Shown piece by piece: positions 14,405 through 59,457 of a stretch of 64,000 bases of DNA; within the stretch, counting starts at the first letter, position 1; each line of letters starts with the position of its first letter. Position numbers and translations under genes: made by a program. Below the pieces are notes generated by a model. The model searched no databases. It saw nothing but the letters and a program-made list of their open reading frames with translations, and was not told the origin of the DNA. The DNA comes from Hamadaea sp. (GTDB lineage Bacteria; Actinomycetota; Actinomycetes; Mycobacteriales; Micromonosporaceae): contig NZ_JABFVK010000031.1 in NCBI RefSeq assembly GCF_013362815.1, positions 1 to 64,000 on the forward strand, given 5' to 3'.

Positions 14405-14516
14405 GCCGTCATTATGCGGTACTGAGATGATCATCTGTACGTCCGGATGTCCGGACAACGAGTGGCGTCCGATCTGTTACGTGAAGATTTCCCGCCAGTC
14501 ATTTACGTCGGCAGGT

Positions 14517-14526
14517 TGTCATGACA
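14517..14526. promoter_or_regulatory. Candidate operator of the GntR/UTRA regulator
   Basis: The palindrome TGTCATGACA lies about 55 bases before the binding-protein ATG. Its GTCATGAC core resembles operators of HutC/DasR-type regulators. Two other palindromes in the same divergent region, GATGATCATC (14426-14435) and TGTCCGGACA (14448-14457), are alternatives. Assignment is inference from position and symmetry. Confidence 0.4.
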
Positions 14527-14579
14527 TTCTGAGCAACGCGAGCCTCTTCGAGTCCCCCTGTCGCCGAAGGGAAGCACCA

Positions 14580-16908: not shown

Positions 16909-17732
16909 ACACCACCGTCAGCCACCTGCTCGGCCGGATCGGCCGCTACGTCTTCCTCAGCGCGGTCCTCGGGTTCTTCGCGATTCCGTTGCTGTGGCTG
17001 GCGACCGCGCCGTTCGACAGCACGCCGAAGATCACGACGTCGATGCCCGACTTCGCGCTGGACAACTTCCGGGCGTTGCTGGACAACCCCTATGCCGTGG
17101 AGTCACTGCTGAACTCGGTCTGGCTGGCCGGTGGCACGGCGATCCTGGTCGTCGTGTTCGCCGCCCTGGCCGCGTACGCGTTGAGCCGGGTCCGCATCCC
17201 CGGCCGGGACGCCCTGCTCTACGGCCTGCTGCTGCTCTCGTCGATCGTGACGGGGACGGCGACCATGGTGCCGCTGTTCGAGCTGGCGTTCCGGCTGAAC
17301 CTGATCGACTCCCGGCTCGGCGTCATCCTGATCATGTCAGGTGGGCTGCTCCCGGCGGCGATCTTCATCCTCAAGGACTTCATGGACTCCACGCCGACCT
17401 CGTACGAGGAGTCGGCGCGCGTGTTCGGGGCCAGCCCGCTGCAGATCGTGCGGCACATCGTGGTGCCCGTCGTCCGGCCGGGCCTAGCCACCGTCGCGGT
17501 GTGGGCGGTCGCCAACGTGTGGGGCAACTTCCTGGTGCCGTACCTGCTGCTGCGCAGCCCGGACAAGGCTCCGGCGGCGGTCATCATGTACACCCTCTAC
17601 ACCGAGGGCGGGCAGGCCGACCTGCGGCTGCTCTCGACGTTCTCGCTGCTCTACTCGCTGCCGGTCGTGCTCATGTTCATCTTCGTGAGCACCCGCTACG
17701 GCTTCCGCTTCCACGGAGGGATCAAACGCTGA
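16905..17732 (+). CDS. Sugar ABC transporter permease, MalG type
   Basis: The second permease (275 residues) has six predicted helices, with the EAA loop SYEESARVFGASPLQIVRHIVVPVVRPG near residue 165. The GTG start overlaps the previous stop (GTGA) and is preceded by AAGGAGG. The stop shares a base with the ATG of the ATPase gene. With the preceding subunit it makes the transmembrane pore of a CUT1-type importer. Confidence 0.92.
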   Translation: MNTTVSHLLGRIGRYVFLSAVLGFFAIPLLWLATAPFDSTPKITTSMPDFALDNFRALLDNPYAVESLLNSVWLAGGTAILVVVFAALAAYALSRVRIPGRDALLYGLLLLSSIVTGTATMVPLFELAFRLNLIDSRLGVILIMSGGLLPAAIFILKDFMDSTPTSYEESARVFGASPLQIVRHIVVPVVRPGLATVAVWAVANVWGNFLVPYLLLRSPDKAPAAVIMYTLYTEGGQADLRLLSTFSLLYSLPVVLMFIFVSTRYGFRFHGGIKR

Positions 17733-44533: not shown

Positions 44534-46801
44534 TTAGACGTCTAGGTAGTCGAGGTTGGCGCAGCCACCGGAGGTGGTGGCGGTCACGCGTACGGTGTTC
44601 GCACCGGCGGCAAGGGTGACGGGCACCGAGGCGATTACCCAGGTGTCCCAGTTCGTCGTCACGGCGAACGACGGTGTGGCGACGACGGTCCCGTTGACCG
44701 AGACTGCAGCGGGCCGGCTGGCGGTGGTTCCGTTCGCGTACGCGATTCGCAATGTCGCCGGTCCGGCGGTGGCCGCGTTCACCGTCCACTCGACGTAGCT
44801 GCCCGTGATGTTGTCGGTGTTCACGAAGCCGGTGCCGCTGAAGCCGAGATGGTTGGCCTCCACGACCCCCTGGGAGATGACGGCGTTCTCGGCCTCGTAT
44901 CGGGTCGGTGGGGGAGCGGCGATCGCGACGTCCACGTAGTCGAGGTTGGGATCGCCGCCGGCGGTGGTCGCCGAGGCCCGGACGGTGTTGGCCCCGGCCG
45001 TCAGCGCCGTGGTGACCGTGATAGTCGCCCAGGTGTCCCAATTCGCGGTCGGCGGGAAGGCGACCGCTGTGGCGACGGTGGTGCCGTTGACCGTGATGTC
45101 CATCGGCCGGTCCGCTGTCGTGCCGTTGGCGTAGCGGAACTTCAGGGTGTGCGGTCCCGCCGCATCGGCTTGGACGTTCCATTGCACGTACGCCCCGAGC
45201 ACGTTGTCGCTGTTGACATAGCCCGTGCCGCTGTAACCGGTGTGGGTGTTCTCGAAGACGCCTGGCGAGTAGGTCGCGTCCTCGGCCTCGTAACGGCCCG
45301 GCGGCGGCGTGGTCACGCAGTTCTCCGTCGAGCCGGCGGCGTTGACCCGCAGCGTGCCGCCCGTCGTGTTCTGGCCGGTCACGCAGTAGCCGCCGACGCT
45401 CTGGAAACCGACGTCGTAGGCCGAGCCGGTGCCGCGTTCGGCGGTGAAGTTGGTGAATTTCAGGTTGCTCGCGGTATTGGCGATGACGGCCGGGCGGTTG
45501 TCGTTGCTTTGGAAGTCGACGGAGCTGTCGATGAACGAGATGTTGTTCGCGTTGTGGACATACCACCCGTACGCCGGCCGCGTGCCGATGCTGTTCGGGT
45601 TGTAGTTGGTCGGGTCGTTGCTCGGTACGCCGGTCGACACGGCCGCACTGCCACCCGGAACGGTCAGGTGCACGTTGGTGAAGGTGACGTCGCTGATCTG
45701 GTTGCCGCCGGCCTCGCCCCACAAGGTCGGGCTGAAGACGGGGCTGCTCTTGCCGACGCCGGTCACGTTCTCGTAGGTGATGTTGCTGATATGGCCGATG
45801 CCGGGGCTGTTGCCGCAGCGTCTGCGGGTGCCGATCTTCTGCATGATGGGCGAGCTGACTCCGCTCATCGTGATGTCCTTGTAGTGGACGTCGCTGATGT
45901 TCGCCCCGTCCATGCTCACCATGCCTAGCCCGGACTTGTTCGCGCCGGTGATGGAGATCCGCTCGAAGACGTAGTCGGTGAAGTCGCCGCACGTCTCGGA
46001 ACCGAACATCAGCGCGTTGCAGCAGCCCGCACTGGCGTGGGTGTCCGTCACGCGTACGTGGCCGTTGGGCAGCTTCGCGCCCAGCGCGTAGTCGCTCTTG
46101 AAGACGATCGCGTCGTCGTTGCCGTTGATGTCGCCGTTGGTGATGGTCACGTTCGTCGCGCTGATGATGTTCCAGGCGTCCCGGTCGGTGGCGGTGAAGA
46201 TCTTCAGATGGTCGGAGGTGATGTTGTTGCAGTTGTTGGTGAGGATCGCGAAATGCCCACCCCGCCGCAGCGTGATGTCGTTCAAGACGAGCCCGTCACA
46301 GCGGGTCAAGGAGATGATCTTGTCGGCTTCGCCGGAGGCGGGGTTGCCCGTGATCAGGTTCCCGCCGCCGTCGAGCGTGCCGGTGCCGGTGAAGCCGATG
46401 TTCGTCAGCCGGTCGCCGTAGAACATCGCGTTGTGGAAATGGCTGTGCCCGTAGTCCTGGTACGCGTCCCATTGGTTCGGCTCGGGCGGGTCGTAGGTGT
46501 CGGCGCTGGAGCCGACGACAGTGGAGCCGGCGTCCAGCTGGACGGTGATGTTGCTCTTCAGATGGATGGTGTTGGCCGATTTGTAGGTGCCCGAAGGGAA
46601 CTGCACGATCCCGCCGCCCGCCGCGGCGGCGGCGTCGACCGCCTTCTGGATCGCGGCGGAGTCGTTGGTCGAGCCGTTGCCGGTCGCGCCGTAGTTCTTG
46701 ACGTTGTAGGTGGCGGCGAACGCGGGTTGGCCGACCGCGCCCGCCAGCAGTACGCCCGTTGTGATGGCCAGAGCTGCGTGAAGCAGCCGTCTCGGTCTCA
46801 T
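44534..46801 (-). CDS. Secreted GH28 polygalacturonase-like enzyme with two CBM35 modules
   Basis: A 755-residue secreted enzyme: signal peptide 1-29 (ending PAFAA), then a GH28 right-handed beta-helix (about 31-495) and two CBM35-like modules (about 503-632 and 633-755). The active-site region shows DRDAWN (206-211), the paired Asp229-Asp230 in INGNDDAIVF, and GSE (267-269) where fungal polygalacturonases have GHG; bacterial exo-acting GH28s often have GSE. It should cleave galacturonan or rhamnogalacturonan outside the cell. GGAGG precedes the ATG. A CCAAT/ATTGG-type half-site lies in its promoter region. Confidence 0.9.
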   Translation of the reverse strand: MRPRRLLHAALAITTGVLLAGAVGQPAFAATYNVKNYGATGNGSTNDSAAIQKAVDAAAAAGGGIVQFPSGTYKSANTIHLKSNITVQLDAGSTVVGSSADTYDPPEPNQWDAYQDYGHSHFHNAMFYGDRLTNIGFTGTGTLDGGGNLITGNPASGEADKIISLTRCDGLVLNDITLRRGGHFAILTNNCNNITSDHLKIFTATDRDAWNIISATNVTITNGDINGNDDAIVFKSDYALGAKLPNGHVRVTDTHASAGCCNALMFGSETCGDFTDYVFERISITGANKSGLGMVSMDGANISDVHYKDITMSGVSSPIMQKIGTRRRCGNSPGIGHISNITYENVTGVGKSSPVFSPTLWGEAGGNQISDVTFTNVHLTVPGGSAAVSTGVPSNDPTNYNPNSIGTRPAYGWYVHNANNISFIDSSVDFQSNDNRPAVIANTASNLKFTNFTAERGTGSAYDVGFQSVGGYCVTGQNTTGGTLRVNAAGSTENCVTTPPPGRYEAEDATYSPGVFENTHTGYSGTGYVNSDNVLGAYVQWNVQADAAGPHTLKFRYANGTTADRPMDITVNGTTVATAVAFPPTANWDTWATITVTTALTAGANTVRASATTAGGDPNLDYVDVAIAAPPPTRYEAENAVISQGVVEANHLGFSGTGFVNTDNITGSYVEWTVNAATAGPATLRIAYANGTTASRPAAVSVNGTVVATPSFAVTTNWDTWVIASVPVTLAAGANTVRVTATTSGGCANLDYLDV

Positions 46802-46830
46802 CTCCGACCTCCGGAGGGAAGGGTCCAGAC

Positions 46831-46844
46831 ATTGGATGAATGAC
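46831..46844. promoter_or_regulatory. FCD-regulator half-site upstream of GH28
   Basis: ATTGGATGAATGAC shares ATTGGATGA with the palindromic site at 49972-49987. It lies 30 bases before the GH28 start. A second similar piece, GATTGGTCCGATG, is at 46891-46903. Confidence 0.45.
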
Positions 46845-46916
46845 GGTGGACTTTCCCGCATGGCGCGGATATGCGGCCTGTTGAATGTATGATTGGTCCG
46901 ATGTCCCGTCAAGGCT

Positions 46917-47723
46917 CTAGCCCTTGGTGGCACCTCCGGTGAGGCCTTTGACGAAGTGCCGCTGCAACAGCAGGAAGAAGATCAGCACCGGCAACGTGGC
47001 GAGGAACATCATGGCGAACATCGCGCCGAAGTCGACCTGGTACTGGCCGATGGAGCGGTAGATGCCCGTAGTCACCGTCGTGCCCTGGCTCGGACCCAGG
47101 ATGATCAGCGGATCGATGAAGTCGTTCCAGATCCAGACCCCGAGGAAGATGAGTACGCTGGCGGTCGCCGGGCGCATCAGCGGGAACACGATCCGCCAGA
47201 ACGTCTGACCCCGGCCGGCTCCGTCGAGGGCCGCCGACTCCTCCAGCTCGACCGGAATGGCCCGCACGAAGCCGGTGAACACGAAGACTCCGAAGGGCAC
47301 GTAGTAACCGACGTTGAACAGGACCAGGCCGGGCACGGTCGTCATCAGCCCGACGGCGCGAAGCACCTGCGTCACCGGCATCAGGATCACCTGCGGCGGG
47401 ATCATCAGGCCGCTGAGCAGCAAGAGCGTCAGCGCACGAGTCCAGCGGCCGCGCGTACGCGCGAGGTAATGGCCGAGCATCGCCGACAGCACGGTGAGCA
47501 CGGCGATCGACAGCGACGTGACGATGACGCTGTTGGTGAGGCTCACCCAGAAGAGCCGGTCGGAGCGGCCGAGCGCGGACCGGATGTTGTCCAGCGTCGG
47601 CGGGATCGGCAGCGACGCGGGCGACTTCGAGATCTGCGGCCCGTCCTTGAAGACGTTCACCACCGCGACGTAGAGCGGAACGGCGAAGACTGCTGCGACC
47701 AGCAGGGCGAACAGCTTCCTCAC
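46917..47723 (-). CDS. Sugar ABC transporter permease, MalG type (pectin locus)
   Basis: A 268-residue permease with six predicted helices and the EAA loop VELEESAALDGAGRGQTFWRIVFPLMRP near residue 165. It forms the membrane channel with the upstream permease. The GTG start overlaps the previous stop (GTGA) with GGAGG upstream. It is the last gene of the three-gene transporter operon; no ATPase gene follows, so a shared MsiK-type ATPase encoded elsewhere probably energises it. Confidence 0.92.
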   Translation of the reverse strand: MRKLFALLVAAVFAVPLYVAVVNVFKDGPQISKSPASLPIPPTLDNIRSALGRSDRLFWVSLTNSVIVTSLSIAVLTVLSAMLGHYLARTRGRWTRALTLLLLSGLMIPPQVILMPVTQVLRAVGLMTTVPGLVLFNVGYYVPFGVFVFTGFVRAIPVELEESAALDGAGRGQTFWRIVFPLMRPATASVLIFLGVWIWNDFIDPLIILGPSQGTTVTTGIYRSIGQYQVDFGAMFAMMFLATLPVLIFFLLLQRHFVKGLTGGATKG

Positions 47724-48622
47724 AGATCGACCTCCCGGCGCTGGAGCAGCTTGAGCGCGACGCCGGACAGCACGGCGATGATGACGAGCATCAGGATGGC
47801 CATCGCGGACGCGAAGCCTTGCCGGTTGGCGACGAAGCCGGTCTGCAACACGTTGTACGCGATGGTGGCGGTGGTTCCCGTACCCGGTCCGCCCCGCGTG
47901 ATGATCTGGACGTGGTCGAAGATCTTGAACGCCGAGATCAGCAGGATCACCGTGTTGATGGTCAGCGCCGGGGCGAGCAGGGGCCAGGTGATCCGGCTGA
48001 AGCGGCGTACCGGGCCGGCTCCGTCGATCGAGGCGGCTTCGAGTAGCTCCTGTGGGACGTGCTGCAATCCGGCCAGGTAGATGACGACACAGAAGCCGAG
48101 CATCTGCCACGACAGGATGGCGCCGAGCGAATAGAGGGCATAGTCCGGATCGGACAGCCAGCCGGGCGGCTCGTCGACGCCGAGTGCACGGAGGGTCTGG
48201 TTGATCAGCCCGTCGTTGTCCAGCAGCCGGGTCCAGATGACGCTGACGACGACGGAGCTGAGCACGACCGGGACGAAGAACACGGTACGCAGACTGGAGA
48301 AGAACCAGCTCTGGCGATCCAGCAGCACGGCGATGGCCAGGCCGGCCACGTTCGGGACGATCACCACGATGGCGGTGAGGATGCTGGTCACCTTCAAAGA
48401 GGTGAGGAACTCCTCGTCGGTCAGCAGCACCCGGTAGTTGTCCAGGCCGACGAAATGGGTCTCGCCGCGGAACGGGTTGTAGTTGGTCAGGCTGTACCCG
48501 AGGCTGATCAGGATCGGGGCCAGCACGAAGCACACGTAGACGGCGGTGCCGGGGCCGCCGAACGACAGGAAGTGCCAGGCCCGCCGCCCGAAGACCGGAC
48601 GGCGGGACACGGATGCGCTCAT
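47720..48622 (-). CDS. Sugar ABC transporter permease, MalF type (pectin locus)
   Basis: A 300-residue permease with six predicted helices and the EAA loop QELLEAASIDGAGPVRRFSRITWPLLAPAL. The motif GGPGTGTTATIAYNVLQTGF is usual in CUT1 MalF-like subunits. The ATG lies 2 bases after the stop of the binding-protein gene and the 3' end overlaps the second permease. Together the three genes encode an importer, most likely for pectin-derived oligosaccharides given the surrounding enzymes. Confidence 0.92.
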   Translation of the reverse strand: MSASVSRRPVFGRRAWHFLSFGGPGTAVYVCFVLAPILISLGYSLTNYNPFRGETHFVGLDNYRVLLTDEEFLTSLKVTSILTAIVVIVPNVAGLAIAVLLDRQSWFFSSLRTVFFVPVVLSSVVVSVIWTRLLDNDGLINQTLRALGVDEPPGWLSDPDYALYSLGAILSWQMLGFCVVIYLAGLQHVPQELLEAASIDGAGPVRRFSRITWPLLAPALTINTVILLISAFKIFDHVQIITRGGPGTGTTATIAYNVLQTGFVANRQGFASAMAILMLVIIAVLSGVALKLLQRREVDL

Positions 48623-48624
48623 GA

Positions 48625-49902
48625 TCAGGTTGCCGCCTTCGCCCATTCGGCGTCGAGGAACGCGCAGACCTGGTCGGGGGTCTTCTTCCCGGTGACGAGG
48701 TCGACCGCGGACGAGTCCCATTTCGCGGTCACGCCCGGCAGCATGCCGTCGTCGCCGGCCTCGAAGCCGAACGCCGGGACTACGGCGTTGGCCGCGACGC
48801 CTTGTGCGTACAAGTCGTAGCCGAGTTTGTAGGCCGCGCCGACGTCGGACGGCGGGCTGTAGCCCTTGATCGCCGGGAAGAGCCCGTCGGCCTTGGCCGA
48901 GTTGTCGAGGTTGCCCTTGTCGAGCTGGAAGCCCAGCGCGAAGGTCTTCGCCGCCTCGAGGTTCTTGGCCTTGGCGCTGACGAGCAGCCCGCCGCCGGTG
49001 AAGGCCGGGATCACGGCCTTGCCGTCGTCCGCGGGCCAGGCGAACTGGCCGACGTGCAGCTTCGTGGTGGGTTTGTCGACCTCGCCGGCGAGCCAGTTGC
49101 CCATCGCGTACATCGCGCCCTTGCCGTCCAGGAACGCCTGTTGCCCGGCTGCGTAGTCGCGCGAGACGTCCTTGGGATCGAGGTAGCCCTGCCGGGCAAG
49201 CTCGGCCAGCTTCGCCGCGCCGGACTTGAACTCCGGGTCGCAGAACTTCACCTTGCCGGCCCGCCGGTCGTGCATCCAGTTCGGATTCTTGGCGTAGACC
49301 TCCGTGGCGAGGATGCCGGCCCACAGTGGGCCGATCGAGTCGTGCACTCCGGCGGTGACGAACGGCGTGATCCCGTTGGCCTTGAGCTTCTGGGCGGCCG
49401 ACAGCAGGTCGGCGTAGGTCTTCGGCTCGCCGGTGATGCCCGCCTTGGCGAACAGGGCCTTGTTGTAGTAGACGACCGGGATCGTCTGAGTGTTGGCGGG
49501 CAGCTGGTAGACCTTGCCCTTGATGGCGCCGTTGGTGGGGAACTGGAAGTCCTTGAGCTCCTCGGTCGTCCAGGCGTAGAGGTTGCCGCCTTCGGCGAAA
49601 CCGGCCGGCGAGACGGCGATCATGACGTCGGGGAACTGCCCGGAACTCAGCAGTTGCTTGGCGTACGTGGTGCGGTCCTGGTCCGGCGAGACCAGTTTCT
49701 TCACGGTGATGTCGGGATGCTTGTCGGTCACCCGCTTGATGGCGGCATCCCAATATTGCGGCGTTAGGTTGGGTGTTTCGAAGACCAGGAAGGTGATCTC
49801 CTTCTTACCGGCGGACGTGGTCGGTTCGCCGACTTCGCAGGCGGCCAGGGTTGGGGCGGCGAGGAGCACCGCCATCCCCAGCGTGAGCAATCGTCTCCTC
49901 AT
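48625..49902 (-). CDS. Sugar-binding lipoprotein of CUT1 transporter (pectin locus)
   Basis: A 425-residue family-1 solute-binding lipoprotein. The signal MRRRLLTLGMAVLLAAPTLA is followed by the lipobox cysteine (LAAC). The body has FPDVMIAVSPAGFAEGGNLYAW, YQLPANTQTIPVVYYNKALFAKAGI and a C-terminal domain ending in PDQVCAFLDAEWAKAAT. It probably binds uronate-containing oligosaccharides from GH28 and GH105 action. The start has only a weak ribosome-binding site. Its promoter region contains the palindrome CCAATGATTGG. Confidence 0.9.
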   Translation of the reverse strand: MRRRLLTLGMAVLLAAPTLAACEVGEPTTSAGKKEITFLVFETPNLTPQYWDAAIKRVTDKHPDITVKKLVSPDQDRTTYAKQLLSSGQFPDVMIAVSPAGFAEGGNLYAWTTEELKDFQFPTNGAIKGKVYQLPANTQTIPVVYYNKALFAKAGITGEPKTYADLLSAAQKLKANGITPFVTAGVHDSIGPLWAGILATEVYAKNPNWMHDRRAGKVKFCDPEFKSGAAKLAELARQGYLDPKDVSRDYAAGQQAFLDGKGAMYAMGNWLAGEVDKPTTKLHVGQFAWPADDGKAVIPAFTGGGLLVSAKAKNLEAAKTFALGFQLDKGNLDNSAKADGLFPAIKGYSPPSDVGAAYKLGYDLYAQGVAANAVVPAFGFEAGDDGMLPGVTAKWDSSAVDLVTGKKTPDQVCAFLDAEWAKAAT

Positions 49903-49971
49903 CGGGGGATTACATCCGATGTTTCGGCGGAGTGTCAAGGTCTTAGATATGCATATCGGGCGCTGCCTGCG

Positions 49972-49987
49972 CCAATGATTGGATGAC
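49972..49987. promoter_or_regulatory. Candidate FCD-regulator operator upstream of the transporter operon
   Basis: CCAATGATTGGATGAC contains the perfect 11-bp palindrome CCAATGATTGG, about 70 bases before the binding-protein start. It is the best-formed copy of the sequence repeated in this locus. Confidence 0.6.
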
Positions 49988-50195
49988 TCCGGTGTCGCCC
50001 CTGCGCCCGGTCCGATCTCGACTCCGGTGGCCGGTCGCTCCGATCGTTCCGTGGTACCGGTCGCTCCGTCGCAGAGCGTGACGGAGCTTCGGTGTTGCGA
50101 CCTCCCTGTCATCCGACGTTTGTAAACTAACTGGCCTATCAGTAAGACGCAACAGTGTGGCTATCCGGGTATGGATCAAGCGGCGGCGTGGCAGA

Positions 50196-50209
50196 CATCC
50201 AATGATTTG
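50196..50209. promoter_or_regulatory. Candidate operator upstream of the FCD regulator gene
   Basis: CATCCAATGATTTG matches the neighbouring site in all but one position of the palindromic core. It lies 50 bases before the regulator start, near its -35 region, which suggests autoregulation. Confidence 0.55.
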
Positions 50210-50259
50210 CCGTAACGGACGGTACGGAGAGTGCACTCGGCCGCCCTATCCTTGGCCGC

Positions 50260-50931
50260 ATGGCCCTTACCGATGAGGCGATCGAGCGCATCAAGGAGAT
50301 GATCGTTTCGGGCGAGCTGCGCCCGGGCGGGCGGCTGCCCAAGGAGGCCGACCTCGCCGAGCGGCTCGGCCTGTCCCGCAACTCGCTGCGTGAGGCGGTC
50401 AAGGCGCTGTCGCTGATCCGGGTGCTGGATGTCCGCCAGGGCGACGGCACCTATGTGACCAGCCTGCAGCCCGCCGTGCTGCTCGACACGGTCGGGTTCA
50501 TCATCGACTTCCACCGCGACGACAGTGTGCTCGATCTGCTGGAGGTGCGCCGCATCCTGGAGTCCGAGGCCACCGCGCTCGCGGCTCGGCACATGACCGA
50601 CGAACAGCTGGCCGAGCTCGGCGAGGTGATCGAGGGTATGGAATCGGCGGCCGACATCAACGAGCTCATCGAGGCCGACCTGGACTTTCATCGGCGGATC
50701 GCCCAAGGCGCAGGCAATCCGGTGCTGGCGTCGCTCATCGAGAGCCTGTCGGCGCCGACCCTGCGCGCTCGGGTGTGGCGCGGGCTGACCCAGGCCGACG
50801 CCGCCGACAGCACCCGCGAGCAGCATCGAGCGATCTTTGCGGCGTTGCGTACGCGGGACGCCAACGTCGCCCGTTCCTGGGCCGCCGTCCACGTCGCCGG
50901 TGTCGAGGAATGGCTGCGTAAGGCGCTCTGA
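50260..50931 (+). CDS. GntR-family regulator with FCD domain (FadR type)
   Basis: A 223-residue regulator. The winged helix is ERIKEMIVSGELRPGGRLPKEADLAERLGLSRNSLREAVKALSLIRVLDVRQGDGTYV, residues 8-66. The FCD domain (about 75-220) has the metal/ligand helices DLLEVRRILESEATALAA, LDFHRRIAQGAGNP and REQHRAIFAALRTRD, with likely histidine and aspartate ligands. FCD regulators often sense uronates or other acids, fitting the pectin enzymes around it. TATCCT seven bases before the ATG indicates a leaderless mRNA. A strong hairpin follows. Confidence 0.9.
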   Translation: MALTDEAIERIKEMIVSGELRPGGRLPKEADLAERLGLSRNSLREAVKALSLIRVLDVRQGDGTYVTSLQPAVLLDTVGFIIDFHRDDSVLDLLEVRRILESEATALAARHMTDEQLAELGEVIEGMESAADINELIEADLDFHRRIAQGAGNPVLASLIESLSAPTLRARVWRGLTQADAADSTREQHRAIFAALRTRDANVARSWAAVHVAGVEEWLRKAL

Positions 50932-50939
50932 AGCCGTTC

Positions 50940-50973
50940 GCGGGGTGCGAGGCTGGACCGCCTCGCACCCCGC
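50940..50973. terminator. Strong bidirectional hairpin between convergent genes
   Basis: The 14-bp perfect stem GCGGGGTGCGAGGC/GCCTCGCACCCCGC with a 6-base loop lies between the ends of the FCD regulator and the convergent GH105 gene. No T tract is present on either side. Confidence 0.8.
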
Positions 50974-51046
50974 TCGGTCGCCCCCTCCCGCGCCTGGCCG
51001 GGGCGGCCGCCGCTCCGGGTGGAACCGGAGAGGTCGTGCTGACGCG

Positions 51047-52987
51047 TCAGGTACGCGTCTGCTCGTACATGATCAGGAATGCGCCGAGACCGTGGAAGTC
51101 GTTGGTGGCTCGCGTACGCCCGACGTAGTAGGCGTAGTCCCCGACGTTCGTGCCGATGGAGATGTCGGTGAGGTTGGTCCGGCCGTCGGAGCCGAGCGAG
51201 ATCCGGTTCAGGACACCGGTGACGCCCCGGTCGGCATTGCTCTGGTAGGTGGCCGCCACGTATCCGTCCGCCACCGCCTTGTCGATCGTGTACGCGTACA
51301 TCGAGGAGCAGGAGGTCTCGGTCCAGTTGTCGGACCGGGTTCCCTTGTCGACGACCTGGAACCAGCGGCCGCTGGCCGGGTCCTGATAGGTCGCGAAGCC
51401 GCGCACCATGTTCTGCGCGATCGTGATCAGCTGCGCCCGTCGCGGATGGTCCGGGGGAAGGACGTCGAGGATCTGCAAGGTCGCCATACCGAACCAGCCG
51501 ATCGCCCGGCACCAGTACTCCGGGGACAGTCCGGTGACGTTGTCGGACCACGTCTCGTCCCGCGGCTCGTCATAGGCGTGCTTGAGCAGCCCGCTCGGTT
51601 GCTGCAGGTGGCTGGCGTACACGACGATCTGCTTGGTCGCCTCGTCCCAGGCGTACGTGCTGTCGCCGACGACCTTGCCGTACTCGGCCAGGAACGGCAT
51701 CGACATGAACGCGCCGTCGGCCCACAGCTGGCCGGCCCGGCTGTCGCTCGTGGCATGCCAGAACCCGCCGTCACTGGTACGCGGATAGGTGGCGAACCGG
51801 TCGTGGATCTTCTGCGCGGCGATCCGGTACTTGGCCTGCCCGGTCTCCCGGTAGAGGATGAGCAGCACTCGTCCGGGCAGCATGCTGTCGAGGTTGCTGT
51901 AGCTCTGTGAGACGTTGCCGCTGCTGTCGACGAACCGGTCCATCCAGTTCTTGATGTAGTCGAAGTAGCGGCGGTCGCCGGTGCGCAGGTAGACGAGGTA
52001 CTGCCCGTACATGTACAGCCCGACCGGATAACTCCAGCCGCCGATGGTGCCCGGGGTGTATCGGGCCATCGTCGACTCCACCATCGCGACCGCCCAATCC
52101 GTGCCGGACGGTGGACCGGGGTCGCCGCCGACGGTGAGCGAGTCCAGATTCGCCGGTCCGCTCGCGGTGGTGGCCGTGAGGCGTACGACGTTCGTCCCGG
52201 CGTTCAGCGTGGCCTGCACCGTCACCGACTGCCACGCCGACCACGCTCCGGTGGGGCCGAACACCGGCGTGCCGACGATCGTCCCGTTCACGGCCAGGGC
52301 GGCCGGCCGGTTCGTGGTGTTGCCATTGGCGTACCGGACGGTCAGGTTCGTCGGGCCGGCCTGCTGCGCGGTGACGGTCCACTCCACGCCGCTGCCGGTG
52401 ACGTTGTCGCAGTTGGCGAAGCCGGTGCCGGTGTAGCCGGGCCAGTTGCTCTCCACGACACAGCCGACGACGAACGTCGCGTTCTCGGCTTCGAGAACCT
52501 GGGGTGGAGCGGTCGCGTCGACGTCGAGGAAGTCCACGTTGGGCCCGCCGTTGGCGGTCGTTGCCGTCGCCTTGACGAGGTTGCCGCCGGTTGCCAGCGT
52601 CACCGGGATGGTCATCGACTGCCACGCGTCCCAGGAGCCGGTGCCGGGGAACGCGGCGTCGGTGACGATCGGCTGTCCATTGAGGGTGATGGTCATCGGC
52701 CGGTTCGTCGTCGTGCCGTTGGCGTACCGGAGGACGAGTTTGACCGGCGTGGCCGCGGCGGCGTCGACGCTCCACTGCACGGATGAGCCCGTGACGTTGT
52801 CGTAGTTGACGAATCCGGTGCCCGAGTAGCCGAGATGGTTCGCCTCCACGACGCCTTGCGAGATCGTGGCGGCTTCGGCTTCGTACCGAGTCGTGGCCGC
52901 CGACGCGGGTGCGCCGAGCGCGGCGAAGGACGTGGCGACCAGGACGATGCTGACGGACGCCGAGACGAACCGTCTGACGAAACGCAT
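51047..52987 (-). CDS. Secreted GH105 unsaturated-uronyl hydrolase with two CBM35 modules
   Basis: A 646-residue enzyme with a signal peptide (1-31), two N-terminal CBM35-like modules (about 33-157 and 161-285) and a C-terminal GH105 (alpha/alpha)6 barrel (about 290-646). Barrel landmarks are GHATSD-like FWHATSDSRAGQLWADGAF, SMPFLAEYG, EYWCRAIGWFGMATL and NWTETSCSSMYAYTI. GH105 enzymes remove the 4,5-unsaturated uronate from lyase products of rhamnogalacturonan. Most are cytoplasmic, so export with CBM35s is unusual. The first CBM35 closely resembles the last one of the GH28 enzyme. Confidence 0.88.
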   Translation of the reverse strand: MRFVRRFVSASVSIVLVATSFAALGAPASAATTRYEAEAATISQGVVEANHLGYSGTGFVNYDNVTGSSVQWSVDAAAATPVKLVLRYANGTTTNRPMTITLNGQPIVTDAAFPGTGSWDAWQSMTIPVTLATGGNLVKATATTANGGPNVDFLDVDATAPPQVLEAENATFVVGCVVESNWPGYTGTGFANCDNVTGSGVEWTVTAQQAGPTNLTVRYANGNTTNRPAALAVNGTIVGTPVFGPTGAWSAWQSVTVQATLNAGTNVVRLTATTASGPANLDSLTVGGDPGPPSGTDWAVAMVESTMARYTPGTIGGWSYPVGLYMYGQYLVYLRTGDRRYFDYIKNWMDRFVDSSGNVSQSYSNLDSMLPGRVLLILYRETGQAKYRIAAQKIHDRFATYPRTSDGGFWHATSDSRAGQLWADGAFMSMPFLAEYGKVVGDSTYAWDEATKQIVVYASHLQQPSGLLKHAYDEPRDETWSDNVTGLSPEYWCRAIGWFGMATLQILDVLPPDHPRRAQLITIAQNMVRGFATYQDPASGRWFQVVDKGTRSDNWTETSCSSMYAYTIDKAVADGYVAATYQSNADRGVTGVLNRISLGSDGRTNLTDISIGTNVGDYAYYVGRTRATNDFHGLGAFLIMYEQTRT

Positions 52988-53110
52988 GCGGGGTTCCTCT
53001 TCTCGGTTCACATATGTGGACGGATGGCGATGGGTCGATCGTGGCTCACGTGAAGATATCCACGAGATTGAGCGCCGGTCAATATTTGTTAACCAACCTG
53101 CCCATCTAAA

Positions 53111-53127
53111 GATCCAATCAATCTTGG
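53111..53127. promoter_or_regulatory. Candidate operator in the GH105/GH29-like divergent promoter (copy 1)
   Basis: GATCCAATCAATCTTGG lies midway between the divergent GH105 and GH29-like genes. It shares ATCCAAT with the sites at 49972 and 50196 and is the inverted counterpart of the copy at 53178. Confidence 0.5.
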
Positions 53128-53177
53128 GTCTTCCATTGATCTATGCGGCGTACGTATGCTCTCGGCACCTTGCCGCC

Positions 53178-53194
53178 CCATGATTGATCGGATC
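53178..53194. promoter_or_regulatory. Candidate operator in the GH105/GH29-like divergent promoter (copy 2)
   Basis: CCATGATTGATCGGATC is, on the opposite strand, GATCCGATCAATCATGG, differing from copy 1 at two of 17 positions. It ends 19 bases before the GH29-like start codon, next to the GGAGGG ribosome-binding site. Confidence 0.5.
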
Positions 53195-53212
53195 TTTTGA
53201 CGGAGGGTTCCG

Positions 53213-55744
53213 ATGACCCGTCTCCTTGCCCGGCTGTGCGCGGTACTTCTCGTGGCGAGCATGCTCGTCACCGGTGGGACCTCTCCCGCGCAGGCTGATC
53301 TCCAACATCCCCGGCAGGCGTTCCTGCGCGACTCGGTCGGCGGGCTGTTCCTCCACTGGGGAATGCGTACGTCGCCCGGCTACACCAGTTGCAGCAGCTG
53401 GGAAAACGCCGTCGTCAGCGGTGGCTGGGACCCGAACTACTGGGTCGCCGAGGCCAAGAAGCTGCACACGCAGTACCTCGTGCTGGCCACGTTCCACAGC
53501 CGGCTCGGGTATGCCCGGCCCTGGCCGTCGGCGATCCCCGGCAGCTGCCGACTGACCAGCCACGACTTCCTGCGGGATCTCATCGACGCCACCAACGCCG
53601 CCGGGATGAAGACCATCCTCTACATGACCGACGATCCCCAGTGGAACACCGAAGGACTGCCGTCCGGGCAGAGCTGGCTCAACAGCTCGGCGTACTCCGC
53701 GTACAAGGGACACTCCGTCGACCTGACCACCCGGGACGGCTTCGGCGAGTTCAGCTACGACAACTTCTTCGAGGTCATGAACCGCTATCCCGACCTCGGC
53801 GGGTTCTGGATCGACAACGACAACGCGTACTGGGAGAGCCACAACCTCTACGCGCAGGTCTACCAGCAGCGGCCGAACTACACGATCAGCAACAACAACG
53901 AAGACACGCCGATCATGGACATGATCAGCAACGAGCAGAAGACCGGCATGACGCCGAGTTACGACTACCCGCAGGCGGTCTACACGGCCCAGCCCCGGTT
54001 GACCGAGGCGGACTTCAAGCTGCCGACCAGCGGGTCGTGGTGGTACACCGGCACCGACAACTCGGTCGACTACAAGCTCACCCTGGGCCGGCTGATCACC
54101 AACGCCGGATCCTCCATCAAGGCGCTCATGGCCGAGACCGCGATGGTCAACGGGAAGTTCCCAGCCGCCCAAGCCACGTTCAACAACTTCGCCAATACGT
54201 ACCTGAACGGCATCTGGGAGTCGATAGGCGGCACCGAGGGCGGCGGCTACATGTACGGCGGACTGGATCCCGGGTTCTGGAACGACGGCGCGCACGGCGT
54301 GACCACCGTCAGCAAGACCAACCCGGACCTGCACTACATCCACGTCCTGACCGCCCCGACGACGTCGACGCTGCGGCTGCGCGACAACGCGTACAAGATC
54401 GCGCAAGTCACCAATCTGCGTACCGGCGCGCCGATCTCCTTCACGCAGAGCGGCGGCTGGCTCACGCTGACCGGACTGTCCGGGTGGGACCAGTACGACA
54501 CCGTGTTCAAGGTCGTGACGAGCGGCCGGGAAGGCATCATCCCGCCCTCCTCGTACGCGATGAGCGCCTCGTCGTCAGCCTCCGGCCACCCCGCCTCAGC
54601 TGCGGCCGACGGTGATTACCTCACCTACTGGGACAACAACAACGCCGCGACGGTGTCACTGCGCTTCGACCTCGGCACCGCCAAGCCGGTGCAGTACATC
54701 GGGATCAACCAGCGCGAGGACTCCACCGTCTACCCGGCCTCCGGCTCGGCTCGCATCAACGCGTACAAGGTGTACACCTCCAGCGACGGCAGCACCTGGA
54801 CCCAGGTGAAGAGCGGCACCCTGCCGAACGCCCGTGGTGTGCAGATCATCGATCTGACCCGGGTCACGACGAGGCACATCCGGCTGGAGAAGACCAGTAC
54901 GCAGGGCATCGATCGGCTGCGGGTCGACGAAGCCTGGATCGGCTCGGACTACGCCAGCTCCGGCACGGTCGTCGTGCCCGGCCCCGGCCGTCTCGAAGCC
55001 GAGAACCCGCCTGCTGTCTGCGACGGCACGATCGACTCCAACCAGCCACCGTTCTCCGGGACGGGTTTCTGCAACACCGCCAACGCCATCGGTGGCTACG
55101 CCGAGTGGAAGGTGGACGCCCCAGCAGCCGGTCCGTACACGCTCACCTTCGGCTGGGCGAACGGCACCACCGCCGACCGCACCTCGACGGTGACGGTGAA
55201 CGGGGCGACCGTCGCCACTCCGGCGTTCGCTCCGACGGGAGCGTGGACCACCTGGACCACGACCTCCGTCAGCGCGACTCTTGCGGCTGGTGTCAACACG
55301 ATCCGGGTGGCCGGCACCACCTCCGGCGGCGCACCGAACCTCGACTACGTCGACGTCGTCTCCGCCGGTCCCGCCCCGGTGGACTACCAGGCGGAAGACT
55401 GCGTGATCCTGCAGGGCGTCGTCGAGTCCAACTGGACCGGTTACACCGGCGCGGGATTCGTCAACGGCGACAACATCGTGGGCTCCGGCATCGAATGCAC
55501 CGTCACCGGACCGGCCACGACGCTGACCGTGCGGTACGCCAACGGAACGACGACCGACCGCCCGATGACGGTGACCGTCGACGGGATCGCCGGCGCGACG
55601 GTCTCGTTCGCGGGGACGGGCGCGTGGACCACCTGGGCGAGCGGTTCGACGCCGATCTCGCTGAGCGCCGGCAGCCACACGGTCCGGATGACCTCCACCA
55701 CCGCCAACGGGGGACCGAACCTGGACCGGATCTCGATCAGCTGA
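53213..55744 (+). CDS. Secreted GH29-like glycosidase with F5/8-type and two CBM35 modules
   Basis: An 843-residue secreted protein: signal peptide 1-28 and an alpha-L-fucosidase-like catalytic region (about 30-435). It has GGLFLHWGMRTSPGY at the start and a candidate nucleophile Asp201 in GGFWIDNDNAYW. A discoidin/F5-8-type beta-sandwich (about 448-585; SGHPASAAADGDYLTYW, HIRLEKTS) and two CBM35-like modules (592-722 and 723-843) with extra cysteines follow. It may remove fucose or a related sugar from pectin side chains; the low similarity to classical GH29 makes specificity uncertain. GGAGGG precedes the ATG. Confidence 0.75.
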   Translation: MTRLLARLCAVLLVASMLVTGGTSPAQADLQHPRQAFLRDSVGGLFLHWGMRTSPGYTSCSSWENAVVSGGWDPNYWVAEAKKLHTQYLVLATFHSRLGYARPWPSAIPGSCRLTSHDFLRDLIDATNAAGMKTILYMTDDPQWNTEGLPSGQSWLNSSAYSAYKGHSVDLTTRDGFGEFSYDNFFEVMNRYPDLGGFWIDNDNAYWESHNLYAQVYQQRPNYTISNNNEDTPIMDMISNEQKTGMTPSYDYPQAVYTAQPRLTEADFKLPTSGSWWYTGTDNSVDYKLTLGRLITNAGSSIKALMAETAMVNGKFPAAQATFNNFANTYLNGIWESIGGTEGGGYMYGGLDPGFWNDGAHGVTTVSKTNPDLHYIHVLTAPTTSTLRLRDNAYKIAQVTNLRTGAPISFTQSGGWLTLTGLSGWDQYDTVFKVVTSGREGIIPPSSYAMSASSSASGHPASAAADGDYLTYWDNNNAATVSLRFDLGTAKPVQYIGINQREDSTVYPASGSARINAYKVYTSSDGSTWTQVKSGTLPNARGVQIIDLTRVTTRHIRLEKTSTQGIDRLRVDEAWIGSDYASSGTVVVPGPGRLEAENPPAVCDGTIDSNQPPFSGTGFCNTANAIGGYAEWKVDAPAAGPYTLTFGWANGTTADRTSTVTVNGATVATPAFAPTGAWTTWTTTSVSATLAAGVNTIRVAGTTSGGAPNLDYVDVVSAGPAPVDYQAEDCVILQGVVESNWTGYTGAGFVNGDNIVGSGIECTVTGPATTLTVRYANGTTTDRPMTVTVDGIAGATVSFAGTGAWTTWASGSTPISLSAGSHTVRMTSTTANGGPNLDRISIS

Positions 55745-55759
55745 GCCATCCCATCGTGT

Positions 55760-55821
55760 GTTGATCATGAACCTGAGGGCGGCGACACGCCGTCAACGGG
55801 GACCTTGGGTTCATGATCAAC
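55760..55821. repeat. Long inverted repeat between two pectin-locus genes
   Basis: The perfect 14-bp arms GTTGATCATGAACC (55760-55773) and GGTTCATGATCAAC (55808-55821) enclose a smaller CGGCG/CGCCG hairpin. The right arm ends two bases before the ribosome-binding region of the following gene, so it could terminate upstream transcription or limit downstream translation. Confidence 0.75.
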
Positions 55822-55834
55822 CGAAAGGAAAGAC

Positions 55835-57421
55835 ATGCGTAGGAGAACTGTGCTGGTGGCGGGAGCCGCCGCGATAGGCGCAGCCGCGGGCGTTCCAGCG
55901 GTCGCGGGCGTTCCAGCGGGAGCGGTGGCGGGCGCTGCGGAGAGCATCGCTGCGACCTGGCAGCTCCGCTGGGCGCCGGAGGCGAGTACGCACGGGCTCG
56001 CGGCGTTCGAAGGAGTCGAAGACGACCGGGCGAACTCGCATCCGGCCGGTCAGCCGCACATCTACGTCTCCGGCAACGACTACCGCTTCAACATGCACCT
56101 CGTCGACCGCGACACGATGACCGACCGGCAACGGCAAGAGGTCAAGGGCATGGTGTGGGACGGCGCGGATCTCATCCTGGCCAAGGGGGAGACCTGGAAG
56201 CTCGCCCATCGGATGTTCATCCCGGGCTCGCTCAAGGCGACGACGACCTTCACCCACATCATGCAGACCAAGGCGCCGGGCACCGACACCCTGCCCATGA
56301 TCACCATGTCGTTGCGGCGGCACGACGGCGTACAGAAGATCGAGCTCGTCGCCGGGGGAGTCACCGTCGGCCTGACCGACCTGGTTCCACTGCAGAACAA
56401 GTGGATCGACGTCGAGCTGGAGATGACGATCGGCGACAGCGACACCGGCCGCGTCCGTTGGGTGCTGCGCGACGGTGCTACGACCGTGATCGACGTGACC
56501 CGCAGCGGCGTCGACACCTGGCTGCAGGACCGGGTGCGGCCGAAGTGGGGGATCTACCGCTCGCTCGGCGACACCTCCGGCAGTCTCCAGGACTGCTACC
56601 TGCTGATCAACACGATGCGGGCGTACAAGTGGGGCGCGGGCGACCCGCCGCCGGTGGGCACTCGGTACGAGGCGGAGAACGCCGTCATCAGCCAGGGAGT
56701 GGTGGAGAACAACCACACCGGCTACACCGGAACCGGATTCGTCAACCTCGACAACGTCGTCGGCTCCTATCTGCAATGGACGGTCAGCGCACCGACCGCG
56801 AGCGTCGCCACCCTCACCTTCCGGTACGCCAACGGCACGACGGCCAACCGCCCGATGGACGTTACGGTCAACGGTTCGCTGGTCGCCGACGAGCTGGCTT
56901 TCGCACCCACGGTGAACTGGGACGACTGGGACACCCAGACGATCGGCGGAATCCGGTTGCCGGCCGGAAGCAGTGCCGTCCGGGTGACCTCGACGACCGC
57001 GAACGGCGGCCCCAACCTCGACCACCTCGAGGTTCAGGTCGTCCCGCTGACACCGGTGGACTACCAGGCCGAGGACGCCACGATCTCGCAGGGCGTCGTG
57101 GAAAGCGATCACACCGGATTCACCGGGGCCGGCTACGTCAACACCGACAACGTCGCCGGATGCTACGTGCAGTTCGCCGTCACCGGACCCGCGACCACCC
57201 TGGTCGTCCGGTACGCCAACGGCACCACGGCGGACCGGCCGATGACGCTGTCGGCAGACGGCGTGTCCCTCGGCTCGGTCAGCTTCCCGCCGACTGGCGC
57301 GTGGACGACCTGGGCCACCGTCACGAAGACGATCAGCGTCGGCTCGGGCGCGCACTCACTGCGCCTGACGGCGAGCACCGCCAACGGCGGGCCCAACCTC
57401 GACCGGATCACCCTCTCGTAG
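55835..57421 (+). CDS. Secreted lyase-like protein of unknown family with two CBM35 modules
   Basis: A 528-residue protein with a twin-arginine-type lead (MRRRTVLVAGAAAIGAAAG) indicating export. The N-terminal domain (about 40-275) is beta-rich and resembles the jelly-roll fold of polysaccharide lyases. It includes MVWDGADLILAKGETWKLA, TFTHIMQTKAPG, LPMITMSLRRHDG and VRWVLRDGATTVIDVTRSG. Two CBM35-like modules follow (279-407 and 408-528). I cannot assign a lyase family. Given the GH105 gene, which needs unsaturated products, a pectin/rhamnogalacturonan lyase is the natural guess. AAAGGAAAG precedes the ATG. Confidence 0.65.
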   Translation: MRRRTVLVAGAAAIGAAAGVPAVAGVPAGAVAGAAESIAATWQLRWAPEASTHGLAAFEGVEDDRANSHPAGQPHIYVSGNDYRFNMHLVDRDTMTDRQRQEVKGMVWDGADLILAKGETWKLAHRMFIPGSLKATTTFTHIMQTKAPGTDTLPMITMSLRRHDGVQKIELVAGGVTVGLTDLVPLQNKWIDVELEMTIGDSDTGRVRWVLRDGATTVIDVTRSGVDTWLQDRVRPKWGIYRSLGDTSGSLQDCYLLINTMRAYKWGAGDPPPVGTRYEAENAVISQGVVENNHTGYTGTGFVNLDNVVGSYLQWTVSAPTASVATLTFRYANGTTANRPMDVTVNGSLVADELAFAPTVNWDDWDTQTIGGIRLPAGSSAVRVTSTTANGGPNLDHLEVQVVPLTPVDYQAEDATISQGVVESDHTGFTGAGYVNTDNVAGCYVQFAVTGPATTLVVRYANGTTADRPMTLSADGVSLGSVSFPPTGAWTTWATVTKTISVGSGAHSLRLTASTANGGPNLDRITLS

Positions 57422-57430
57422 GAGTGCGTT

Positions 57431-59419
57431 GTGCGTACCAAGAAGATTGCACGGGCCTTGGTCGCAGCGGCCGTGACCGTCGCCGCCACCGTGCTTGTGG
57501 TGATCGGCGGACCGCAACCGGCGACGGCGCTGGAGAACGGCCTGGCGCGGACGCCGCCGATGGGCTTCAACAACTGGAATTCGACCGCGTGCCGCGCCGA
57601 GTTCAACGAGAGCATGGTGCTCGGCATCATGGACATCTTCGTGAATCAGGGCCTGCGCGAGGCTGGATACACCTACGTCAACCTCGACGACTGCTGGGCC
57701 GTGCCCGCGCCGAACTCGCGTGACGCCAATGGGAATCTGATCCCTGACCCGACGCGGTTTCCGCACGGTATCAAGTACCTGGCGGATTACGCGCACGCGC
57801 GCGGGCTCAAACTCGGGATCTACACCAGTGCCGGTACGAAGACCTGCAACACGCTGGGCTTCTCCGGCGGCCTGGGCCATGAGCAGCAGGACGCGGCGAC
57901 CTTCGCCTCCTGGGGCGTGGACTACCTGAAGTACGACAACTGCAACAACCAGGGCGTGGACCCGGTGCAGCGGTACACGACCATGCGCGACGCGTTGCTG
58001 GCGACCGGGCGGCCGATCGTCTATTCGATCTGCGAATGGGGACGTAGCGATCCGAAGGTGTGGACGTGGGGCGCCGACGTCGGCAACCTGTGGCGCACCA
58101 CCGGCGACATCAGCGACAACTGGACCAGCATGATCGGCAAGGCGCAGGCCAACCGAGTGCTGCCACAATACGCCGGGCCCGGCCACTGGAACGATCCCGA
58201 CATGCTGGAGGTCGGCAACGGCGGCATGACCGCGACGGAGTACCGCAGCCACTTCAGCCTGTGGGCGATCATGGCGGCTCCGCTGCTGATCGGCTCCGAC
58301 CTGCGCAAGGCGACGGCCGAAACGTTCGGCATCCTCAAGAACGCCGACGTCATCGCCGTCGACCAGGACCCGCTCGGCCGCCAGGGCACGGTGGTCAGCA
58401 ACGACGGGGCCGGCCACGTCGTCTACGCGCGTACGTTGGCCAACGGCGATCGCGCGGTCGCCCTGTCCAACGAGACGACGACGACCGCGACCATCGCGAC
58501 GTCGGCAGCGGCGATCGGCATCGGTGGCTCGTCCTCCTACACGCTCAAAGATCTGTGGTCGAAGGCGACGTCGACGTCGAGTGGGTCGATCAGCGCGTCG
58601 GTCGGCGCGCACGCCACGACGCTCTACCGCGTTTCGCGGGCCGGGACGACGACCCGATTCGAGGCCGAGAACGCCTCCTACACAAGCGGTTCCACCGTCG
58701 ACGCGAACTGGTCTGGGTACTCCGGAACCGGGTTCGTCAACACGCCCAACAGCGCCGGGAGTTACGTCGAGTTCACCGTGACCGCCGCGCAGGCGGGGCA
58801 GGCCCGGCTCACCTTCGACTACGGCAACGGCTCGACCGCGGACCGCCCCTCGACGCTGACCGTCAACGGCGGCGGCTCGACTTCGCTCGCCTTCCCGGCG
58901 ACCGGCGCCTGGTCGCTGTGGAAGACGCAGGTCGCCACGGTCAGCCTCGCGGCCGGCACCAACACGATCCGGCTCACCGCCACCGGCAGCGGCGGCGTCG
59001 CCAACCTCGACTACCTCGACGTCACCGTCACACCCACCACACCAGTGCAGAACTACGAGGCCGAAGACGCCACGATCGTCCAGGGCGTCGTCGAGTCCAA
59101 CCACACCGGCTACTTCGGCACCGGATTCGTCAACGGCGACAACCTCGCCGGGCCCTATGTCGAGTGGGCCGTCACACCCTCCGCCGCCGGTCCGGGCACT
59201 ATCACCATCCGGTACGCCAACGGCACCGCCGGGACGCGTACGGCGGATGTCCGGGTGAACGGGGCGCTTGTGCAGAACCTGTCGTTCCCCAGTACGGGCA
59301 ACTGGGACACCTGGGCGACGGCGACCTTCACTGCGTCGCTCGTGGGCGGGGCGAACACGGTCCGGGTCACCGCGACCGGGACGGACGGCAATCCCAACCT
59401 CGACCGGCTCTCGATCTGA
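57431..59419 (+). CDS. Secreted GH27 alpha-galactosidase-like enzyme with two CBM35 modules
   Basis: A 662-residue enzyme: signal peptide 1-33, then the GH27 TIM barrel with C-terminal beta-domain (about 35-405) and two CBM35-like modules (411-540 and 541-662). It has TPPMGFNNWN, VNLDDCW, the nucleophile Asp169 in YLKYDNCNN and the acid/base Asp226 in WRTTGDISDNW. GH27 contains alpha-galactosidases and beta-L-arabinopyranosidases, both plausible for pectin side chains. The GTG start lies 9 bases after the previous stop, so both belong to one operon. Confidence 0.9.
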   Translation: MRTKKIARALVAAAVTVAATVLVVIGGPQPATALENGLARTPPMGFNNWNSTACRAEFNESMVLGIMDIFVNQGLREAGYTYVNLDDCWAVPAPNSRDANGNLIPDPTRFPHGIKYLADYAHARGLKLGIYTSAGTKTCNTLGFSGGLGHEQQDAATFASWGVDYLKYDNCNNQGVDPVQRYTTMRDALLATGRPIVYSICEWGRSDPKVWTWGADVGNLWRTTGDISDNWTSMIGKAQANRVLPQYAGPGHWNDPDMLEVGNGGMTATEYRSHFSLWAIMAAPLLIGSDLRKATAETFGILKNADVIAVDQDPLGRQGTVVSNDGAGHVVYARTLANGDRAVALSNETTTTATIATSAAAIGIGGSSSYTLKDLWSKATSTSSGSISASVGAHATTLYRVSRAGTTTRFEAENASYTSGSTVDANWSGYSGTGFVNTPNSAGSYVEFTVTAAQAGQARLTFDYGNGSTADRPSTLTVNGGGSTSLAFPATGAWSLWKTQVATVSLAAGTNTIRLTATGSGGVANLDYLDVTVTPTTPVQNYEAEDATIVQGVVESNHTGYFGTGFVNGDNLAGPYVEWAVTPSAAGPGTITIRYANGTAGTRTADVRVNGALVQNLSFPSTGNWDTWATATFTASLVGGANTVRVTATGTDGNPNLDRLSI

Positions 59420-59457
59420 CCTCCCGAGGAATACCTCCCAAGGAATGAGGTGAACAA

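Follow-up and report, generated by a model that had tools for sequence, protein, structure and literature searches.

A group of genes for polysaccharide breakdown and sugar import surrounds a GntR/FCD regulator gene in the 64-kb stretch of DNA analysed here (the window), which is part of a 7.45-Mb draft genome, G000. The locus raises the question of whether these genes form one regulon under the regulator in their midst, and through which DNA element such control would be exerted. The genes are ordered as GH28 and CUT1 operon (minus strand), FCD regulator (plus), GH105 (minus) and GH29-like, lyase-like, GH27 and GSDH (plus), the last four probably being one operon (Table 1). The regulator combines a GntR winged helix with an FCD domain, both with Pfam scores above the cut-off, as in members of the FCD (FadR) group of the GntR superfamily, and is 99% identical to a protein of a Hamadaea MAG (Micromonosporaceae). 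Six secreted proteins of the locus (encoded at 44534-46801, 51047-52987 and 53213-61908) have a pair of CBM35/CBM6-like modules in common, with 42-57% mutual identity; the pair sits at either protein end, which looks like the copying of one targeting tag from protein to protein. Comparisons were made with a genome of the same genus as the window (G061) and with genomes of two other genera (G017 and G019); gene calls in related loci are rough.

Table 1. Genes, promoter-like sequences, operators and repeated elements of the locus. Distances are given between operator centres; bits and ranks of operators refer to the scan of the window with the held-out matrix.
Feature	Coordinates	Strand	Details
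GH28 enzyme, two CBM35/CBM6-like modules	44534..46801	-	nearest NCBIfam model rhamnogalacturonidase, 297.6 bits, below cut-off 500
CUT1 sugar ABC operon: permease G, permease F, binding protein	46920..49902	-	
GntR/FCD regulator, predicted binder	50260..50931	+	Pfam GntR PF00392 64.5 bits, FCD PF07729 97.8 bits
GH88/GH105-type unsaturated uronyl hydrolase, two CBM modules	51047..52987	-	Pfam Glyco_hydro_88 292.5 bits
Distant GH29 alpha-L-fucosidase-like protein, F5/8 type C and CBM modules	53213..55744	+	Pfam Alpha_L_fucos 38 bits; PDB fucosidase 9eu1, E 8e-9
Downstream genes: polysaccharide-lyase-like, GH27, GSDH	55835..61908	+	gaps 90, 9, 38 bp
GH28 promoter-like TTGACG-17-TACATT	46884..46912	-	conserved in G061
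CUT1 operon promoter-like TTGACA-18-TGTAAT	49909..49938	-	same layout in G061 and G017
GH28 operator, downstream half of pair, TTCATCCAATGTCTG, centre 46834	46825..46843	-	17.7 bits, rank 3; conserved in G061
Weak operator within GH28 promoter spacer, centre 46899, 65 bp from 46834	46890..46908	-	7.1 bits, rank 11; same position and 65-bp spacing in G061
Strongest operator, ACATCCGATGT at 49912-49922, centre 49917, over -10/spacer of CUT1 binding-protein gene	49908..49926	.	24.1 bits, rank 1
Second CUT1 operator, centre 49981, 64 bp from 49917	49972..49990	-	10.9 bits, rank 8; spacing 64 in G061, 65 in G017
FCD gene upstream operator, centre 50114	50105..50123	.	12.5 bits, rank 6
FCD gene downstream operator, centre 50200, 86 bp from 50114	50191..50209	.	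18.7 bits, rank 2
GH105/GH29-like intergenic operator, centre 53115	53106..53124	.	13.1 bits, rank 5
GH105/GH29-like intergenic operator, centre 53190, 75 bp from 53115	53181..53199	.	15.8 bits, rank 4
22-bp element TTTGTWAACYAACYKGCCYATC, copy 1	50119..50140	+	
22-bp element TTTGTWAACYAACYKGCCYATC, copy 2	53085..53106	+	

A preliminary description of the locus had proposed that the FCD protein binds a CCAAT/ATTGG operator, represented by CCAATGATTGG and variants of it. All six strings on which it was based lie within a few bases of where they had been placed (46831, 46891, 49972, 50196, 53111 and 53178), and CCAATGATTGG at 49972-49982 is indeed perfectly palindromic; its ATTGG..CCAAT boxes are also similar to those of E. 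coli UxuR/ExuR sites. The motif itself, however, behaves as a chance sequence. With up to two mismatches, CCAATNATTGG has 8 matches in the window versus 8.8 expected from shuffles; with up to one mismatch it occurs 0.32 times per 100 kb at FCD loci versus 0.25 at random loci, and in FCD loci of other families no such match was found. It was dropped as a motif for its chance frequency in the window and its lack of enrichment at FCD loci. The palindrome at 49972 is broken in close relatives, reading CCAATGATGGG in G061 and TCAATGATGGG in the Hamadaea MAG, and the statement that no further variants occur in the window fails, with CCAATSA also present near 1275, 36104 and 38728.

The real element is an odd palindrome, ANACATC-N-GATGTNT, whose core ACATC-N-GATGT recurs upstream of FCD orthologues in other genera. 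A symmetric matrix of 19 columns was built from loci outside the window's genus and seeded on the 11-base core only; the outer A/T (72%), which had not been seeded, emerged in it, and this would not be expected of a chance motif. When the window was scanned with this held-out matrix, the six best sites all fell in the three promoter regions of the locus, where enrichment had been predicted; together with the sites ranking 8 and 11 they lie within 700 bp of intergenic DNA, or 1.1% of the window. Provided that placements are independent, the probability of finding six of six there by chance is approximately 2e-12. The eight sites form four pairs, before the GH28, CUT1, FCD and GH105/GH29-like genes. 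The exact sequence ACATCNGATGT occurs only twice in the 7.45-Mb genome, one of the two occurrences being that at 49917.

These sites account for the earlier motif. The six strings coincide with real operators, but CCAAT/ATTGG is a shifted fragment of them in the wrong register, CCAATGATTGG overlapping the operator centred at 49981. The A of CCAAT is an off-consensus base that stands in place of a consensus G, and the strongest site had been overlooked because it carries the consensus G there and hence contains no CCAAT. The inverted orientation assigned to the variants at 53111 and 53178 is meaningless for a site that is palindromic. Since the best site lacks the CCAAT box altogether, and given the chance-level counts above, it is scarcely credible that the FCD protein recognises CCAATGATTGG and its variants. 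The correction of this plausible call shows that a perfect 11-bp palindrome can arise as a by-product of overlapping a true site.

Several lines of evidence connect ACATC-N-GATGT to the FCD regulator. The 40 held-out FCD loci contain 42 sites of at least 18 bits, and 20 loci drawn at random from the same family contain none. In a strict form, ANACATCNGATGTNT, the motif is present in 86/175 genomes with an FCD relative (E <= 1e-30) versus 1/126 without one (Fisher 1.8e-24 over 301 genomes, where, as for other E-values and p-values given here except those reduced per genus, loci are treated as independent), and the contrast holds within two large genera (37/67 vs 1/39; 13/27 vs 0/41). About half of the FCD-positive genomes have no exact match to ANACATCNGATGTNT, a form so strict that G000 also has none. 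The comparison also covered 64 loci of other actinobacterial families (among them Streptomyces, Amycolatopsis, Nonomuraea and Herbidospora), and in 56 of these the best site of the locus precedes the FCD start by no more than 150 bp (median 28 bp), as would be expected of a repressor that regulates its own gene.

The same sites might belong to a different regulator encoded elsewhere, which would simply count the FCD gene among its targets. In favour of this, sites also precede the FCD gene, and the genome holds several FCD paralogues, one of them with similar sites. Against this, co-occurrence with FCD relatives is near absolute (the single exception among 126 FCD-negative genomes) and in the majority of the other actinobacterial families the sites directly precede the FCD gene, which leaves this explanation very improbable. 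Cross-binding by paralogues in the same genome, one of which has similar GACATCCYATGTC sites, is possible. Around the FCD paralogue of region L094 (G000:C124; 31-32% identity), GGACATCCYATGTCC sites are found at 9341-9440 and 7192, approximately 83 bp apart, and could constitute a sister operator with cross-talk. It is very likely that ACATC-N-GATGT is the operator of this regulator group, and the earlier proposal of one local regulon with several promoters and the FCD protein as predicted binder thereby gains computational support.

Elsewhere in the genome of the window, no core match was both clearly intergenic and above 12 bits among the approximately 35 scored with their flanks out of the matches listed (about 50 of some 60-65); the one-mismatch cores in this scored set were mostly intragenic or weak. 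A genome scan with GACATCCRATGTC (up to two mismatches) gave a 5-fold excess over a reversed control but was rejected as evidence for a wider regulon, coding matches being dominant. At 14108-17732 the window also contains a GntR-type gene together with another sugar ABC system, whose permeases are CUT1-like; this region is without strong ACATC-N-GATGT sites.

The FadR/FCD subfamily consensus is a TKGT/ACMA palindrome with GT on the left and AC on the right (PMC4494728). The operator derived from the held-out motif is not of this type, its half-sites being reversed as ACATC-N-GATGT. The GT..AC arrangement is common and not universal, BioR and NanR deviating from it (PMC4494728), so that domain content decides family membership. 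In domain composition (GntR and FCD), location beside carbohydrate genes and autoregulatory divergent sites, the present system resembles those of NanR, LldR, PdhR, UxuR and ExuR. The FCD protein reached none of the NCBIfam equivalog cut-offs, scoring 64.5 and 63 bits with the UxuR and ExuR models versus cut-offs of 442 and 396.

The arrangement of the sites in pairs follows the pitch of the DNA helix, a feature that the preliminary description had not picked up. Centre to centre, the members of the pairs in the window are 65 (GH28), 64 (CUT1), 86 (FCD) and 75 bp (GH105/GH29-like) apart. Over 80 FCD loci plus the window, pair distances in the Micromonosporaceae cluster at 63-65, 74-77, 84-88, 95-96 and 107-108, i.e. 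spacings of 64, 75, 86, 96 and 107 bp that make up a ladder of approximately 10.6 bp. When each combination of genus and distance was counted once, the resulting 36 pairs gave a mean cosine of 0.66 at 10.6 bp (p < 1e-5), and the 25 pairs left after removal of the 64-bp class gave a p of 1e-5. Two strict genome-wide pair scans that were not anchored on FCD genes returned the same classes (64, 74-76, 86-87, 95-96 and 107-108), with 32/54 pairs in phase versus 23% expected, and 20/38 when collapsed per genus (p ~0.005 at 10.6 bp); strict pairs with gaps of 15-45 bp were set aside, being mixed with hairpins and tandem repeats. The FCD promoter pair measures 86 bp in the window versus 96 bp in G061 of the same genus, and 85 bp in G017 versus 96 bp in G019, so that the spacings of relatives are one helical turn apart. 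The GH105/GH29-like spacing is 75 bp in the window, G061 and G017, three genomes that represent two genera. Outside the Micromonosporaceae the ladder was not significant (7 genus-distance combinations, p ~0.1), and pairing is therefore no general property of the regulator.

In repression systems of the lac, gal and deo type, a loop between two operators is recognised by their helical phasing. The pairs described here share this phasing, with same-face operators in steps of ~10.5 bp within the Micromonosporaceae; the lac, gal and deo repressors are unrelated, and loops here would be short (64-107 bp). The simplest cause suggested by the ladder is that two dimers bound to the same side of the helix touch each other, and such contact or looping is, judging from these spacings, rather probable. 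FCD dimers could instead bind independently, each pair acting as two roadblocks or serving two promoters, with neither contact nor loop. Suvorova et al. 2015 (PMC4494728) found independence to be frequent among the double sites of FadR-type divergons, and outside the Micromonosporaceae the FCD start is usually accompanied by a single site. Independent binding has no need of helical phase, yet the distances follow the ~10.6 bp ladder and related promoters differ by one turn, which makes it unlikely that the dimers act separately. One-turn steps between related promoters would preserve an evolutionary trace of GntR-type dimers touching on the same face of the DNA.

The clearest case of looping by a GntR-type protein that we found in the literature, within a limited coverage, is a single Agrobacterium tetramer. 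Atu1419 of Agrobacterium fabrum, an FCD protein of the VanR group, was seen by electron microscopy to loop DNA as a tetramer (PMC7797058). Like the predicted repressor of the present locus, it is an FCD repressor with two palindromes per promoter region; unlike it, it has the palindrome ATGTATACAT, its sites are 190 and 109 bp apart and, in the parts of that report available to us, the work concerns one organism and describes no phased ladder across species (PMC7797058).

Operator placement in two of the promoters fits a role in repression. The operator at 49917 covers the spacer and -10 of the CUT1 promoter, and the spacer of the GH28 promoter holds one operator (46899). The start codon of the CUT1 binding-protein gene comes 6 bases past the -10, a layout conserved in G061 and G017, and the mRNA is hence probably leaderless.

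A hint about the signal comes from the gene neighbourhoods of the regulator's relatives. An L-fuconate dehydratase gene (identified through PDB 1yey/2hxt, E 7e-191) is present in 41/80 FCD loci versus 0/20 random loci, and some FCD loci also encode a protein closest to the L-fucono-lactonase model. The FCD loci of G017 and G019 show this link to L-fuconate dehydratase and lactonase genes. That of G017 also has GH28, GH105, GH29-like and CUT1 genes, and there an 85-bp operator pair separates the FCD gene from the divergently oriented dehydratase gene. Neither an L-fuconate dehydratase nor a lactonase gene was found in the 64-kb window. The L-fuconate dehydratase of the same genome, at L093 (G000:C68), adjoins a second FCD paralogue with 48% identity to the window regulator.

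The position of the dehydratase next to the regulator's relatives points to L-fuconate, or a sugar acid resembling it, as the probable signal, although for an L-fuconate-like inducer as such we would put the odds at about even. Within the FCD domain, the segments DLDFHRR, REQHRA and AAVHVAG are, by eye, consistent with the D-H-H-H metal-binding set for carboxylate ligands. The substrate would be a fucosylated rhamnogalacturonan, since the GH28 enzyme is nearest to rhamnogalacturonidases and the GH29-like protein is a distant fucosidase. The preliminary description had spoken of a pectin regulon; the term needs refining in view of the ties of the regulator's relatives to L-fuconate dehydratase and L-fucono-lactonase, and the locus seems to serve the use of a fucose-bearing rhamnogalacturonan. 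We infer that a fucose-pathway regulator was moved to, or extended over, a locus for fucosylated rhamnogalacturonan.

Predicted FucR sites lie near fucose-pathway genes, L-fuconate dehydratase included, in Halomonas, Algoriphagus and a Rhodobacteraceae bin (PMC5507952). This regulation is similar to that of the present FCD subfamily in its link to L-fuconate dehydratase, and differs in that the portion of the work at hand gives neither an ACATC-N-GATGT motif nor an actinobacterial pectin locus (PMC5507952).

Taken as a whole, our reading is that of an FCD repressor acting through paired, phased operators and released by a sugar acid, to which we give a probability of roughly 0.72 on computational grounds. 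The protein encoded at 50260-50931 would bind ANACATC-N-GATGTNT as a dimer, and would control five transcription units through the four operator pairs: its own gene, GH28, GH105, the CUT1 importer, and the GH29-like gene plus those downstream. With the members of each pair on one face of the helix (64-65, 75 or 86 bp), two bound dimers probably touch, forming either a tetramer that closes a small DNA loop over the promoter or a phased array; at CUT1 and GH28, one member of the pair would cover the -35/-10 region. The repressor would come off the DNA in response to a sugar acid formed as the polymer is broken down, with L-fuconate or a close analogue as the likeliest candidate, and this would turn on import and extracellular hydrolysis of a fucosylated rhamnogalacturonan-type pectin.

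A literature search of limited coverage found no description of the motif, of the phase ladder or of an actinobacterial GntR fucose regulator. On balance, we slightly favour the view that a widespread actinobacterial FCD regulator with reversed half-sites evolved phase-locked pairs (64, 75, 86, 96 and 107 bp) in the Micromonosporaceae, amounting to short-loop repression retained across genera, and that in the present case it has come to serve a fucosylated pectin locus, having moved there from L-fucose catabolism. The motif provides a testable operator for a large and apparently uncharacterised group of regulators in Streptomyces, Amycolatopsis, Nonomuraea and the Micromonosporaceae.

A second shared sequence accompanies the operators. 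The 22-bp element TTTGTWAACYAACYKGCCYATC occurs in two same-orientation copies in the locus, where 0 are expected, and elsewhere in the genome only one weak match with 3 mismatches was found. It is conserved in G061 and absent from other genera. As a site for the FCD protein it was rejected, being confined to the genus and not found in other FCD loci; it is possibly the site of another factor, such as a second regulator.
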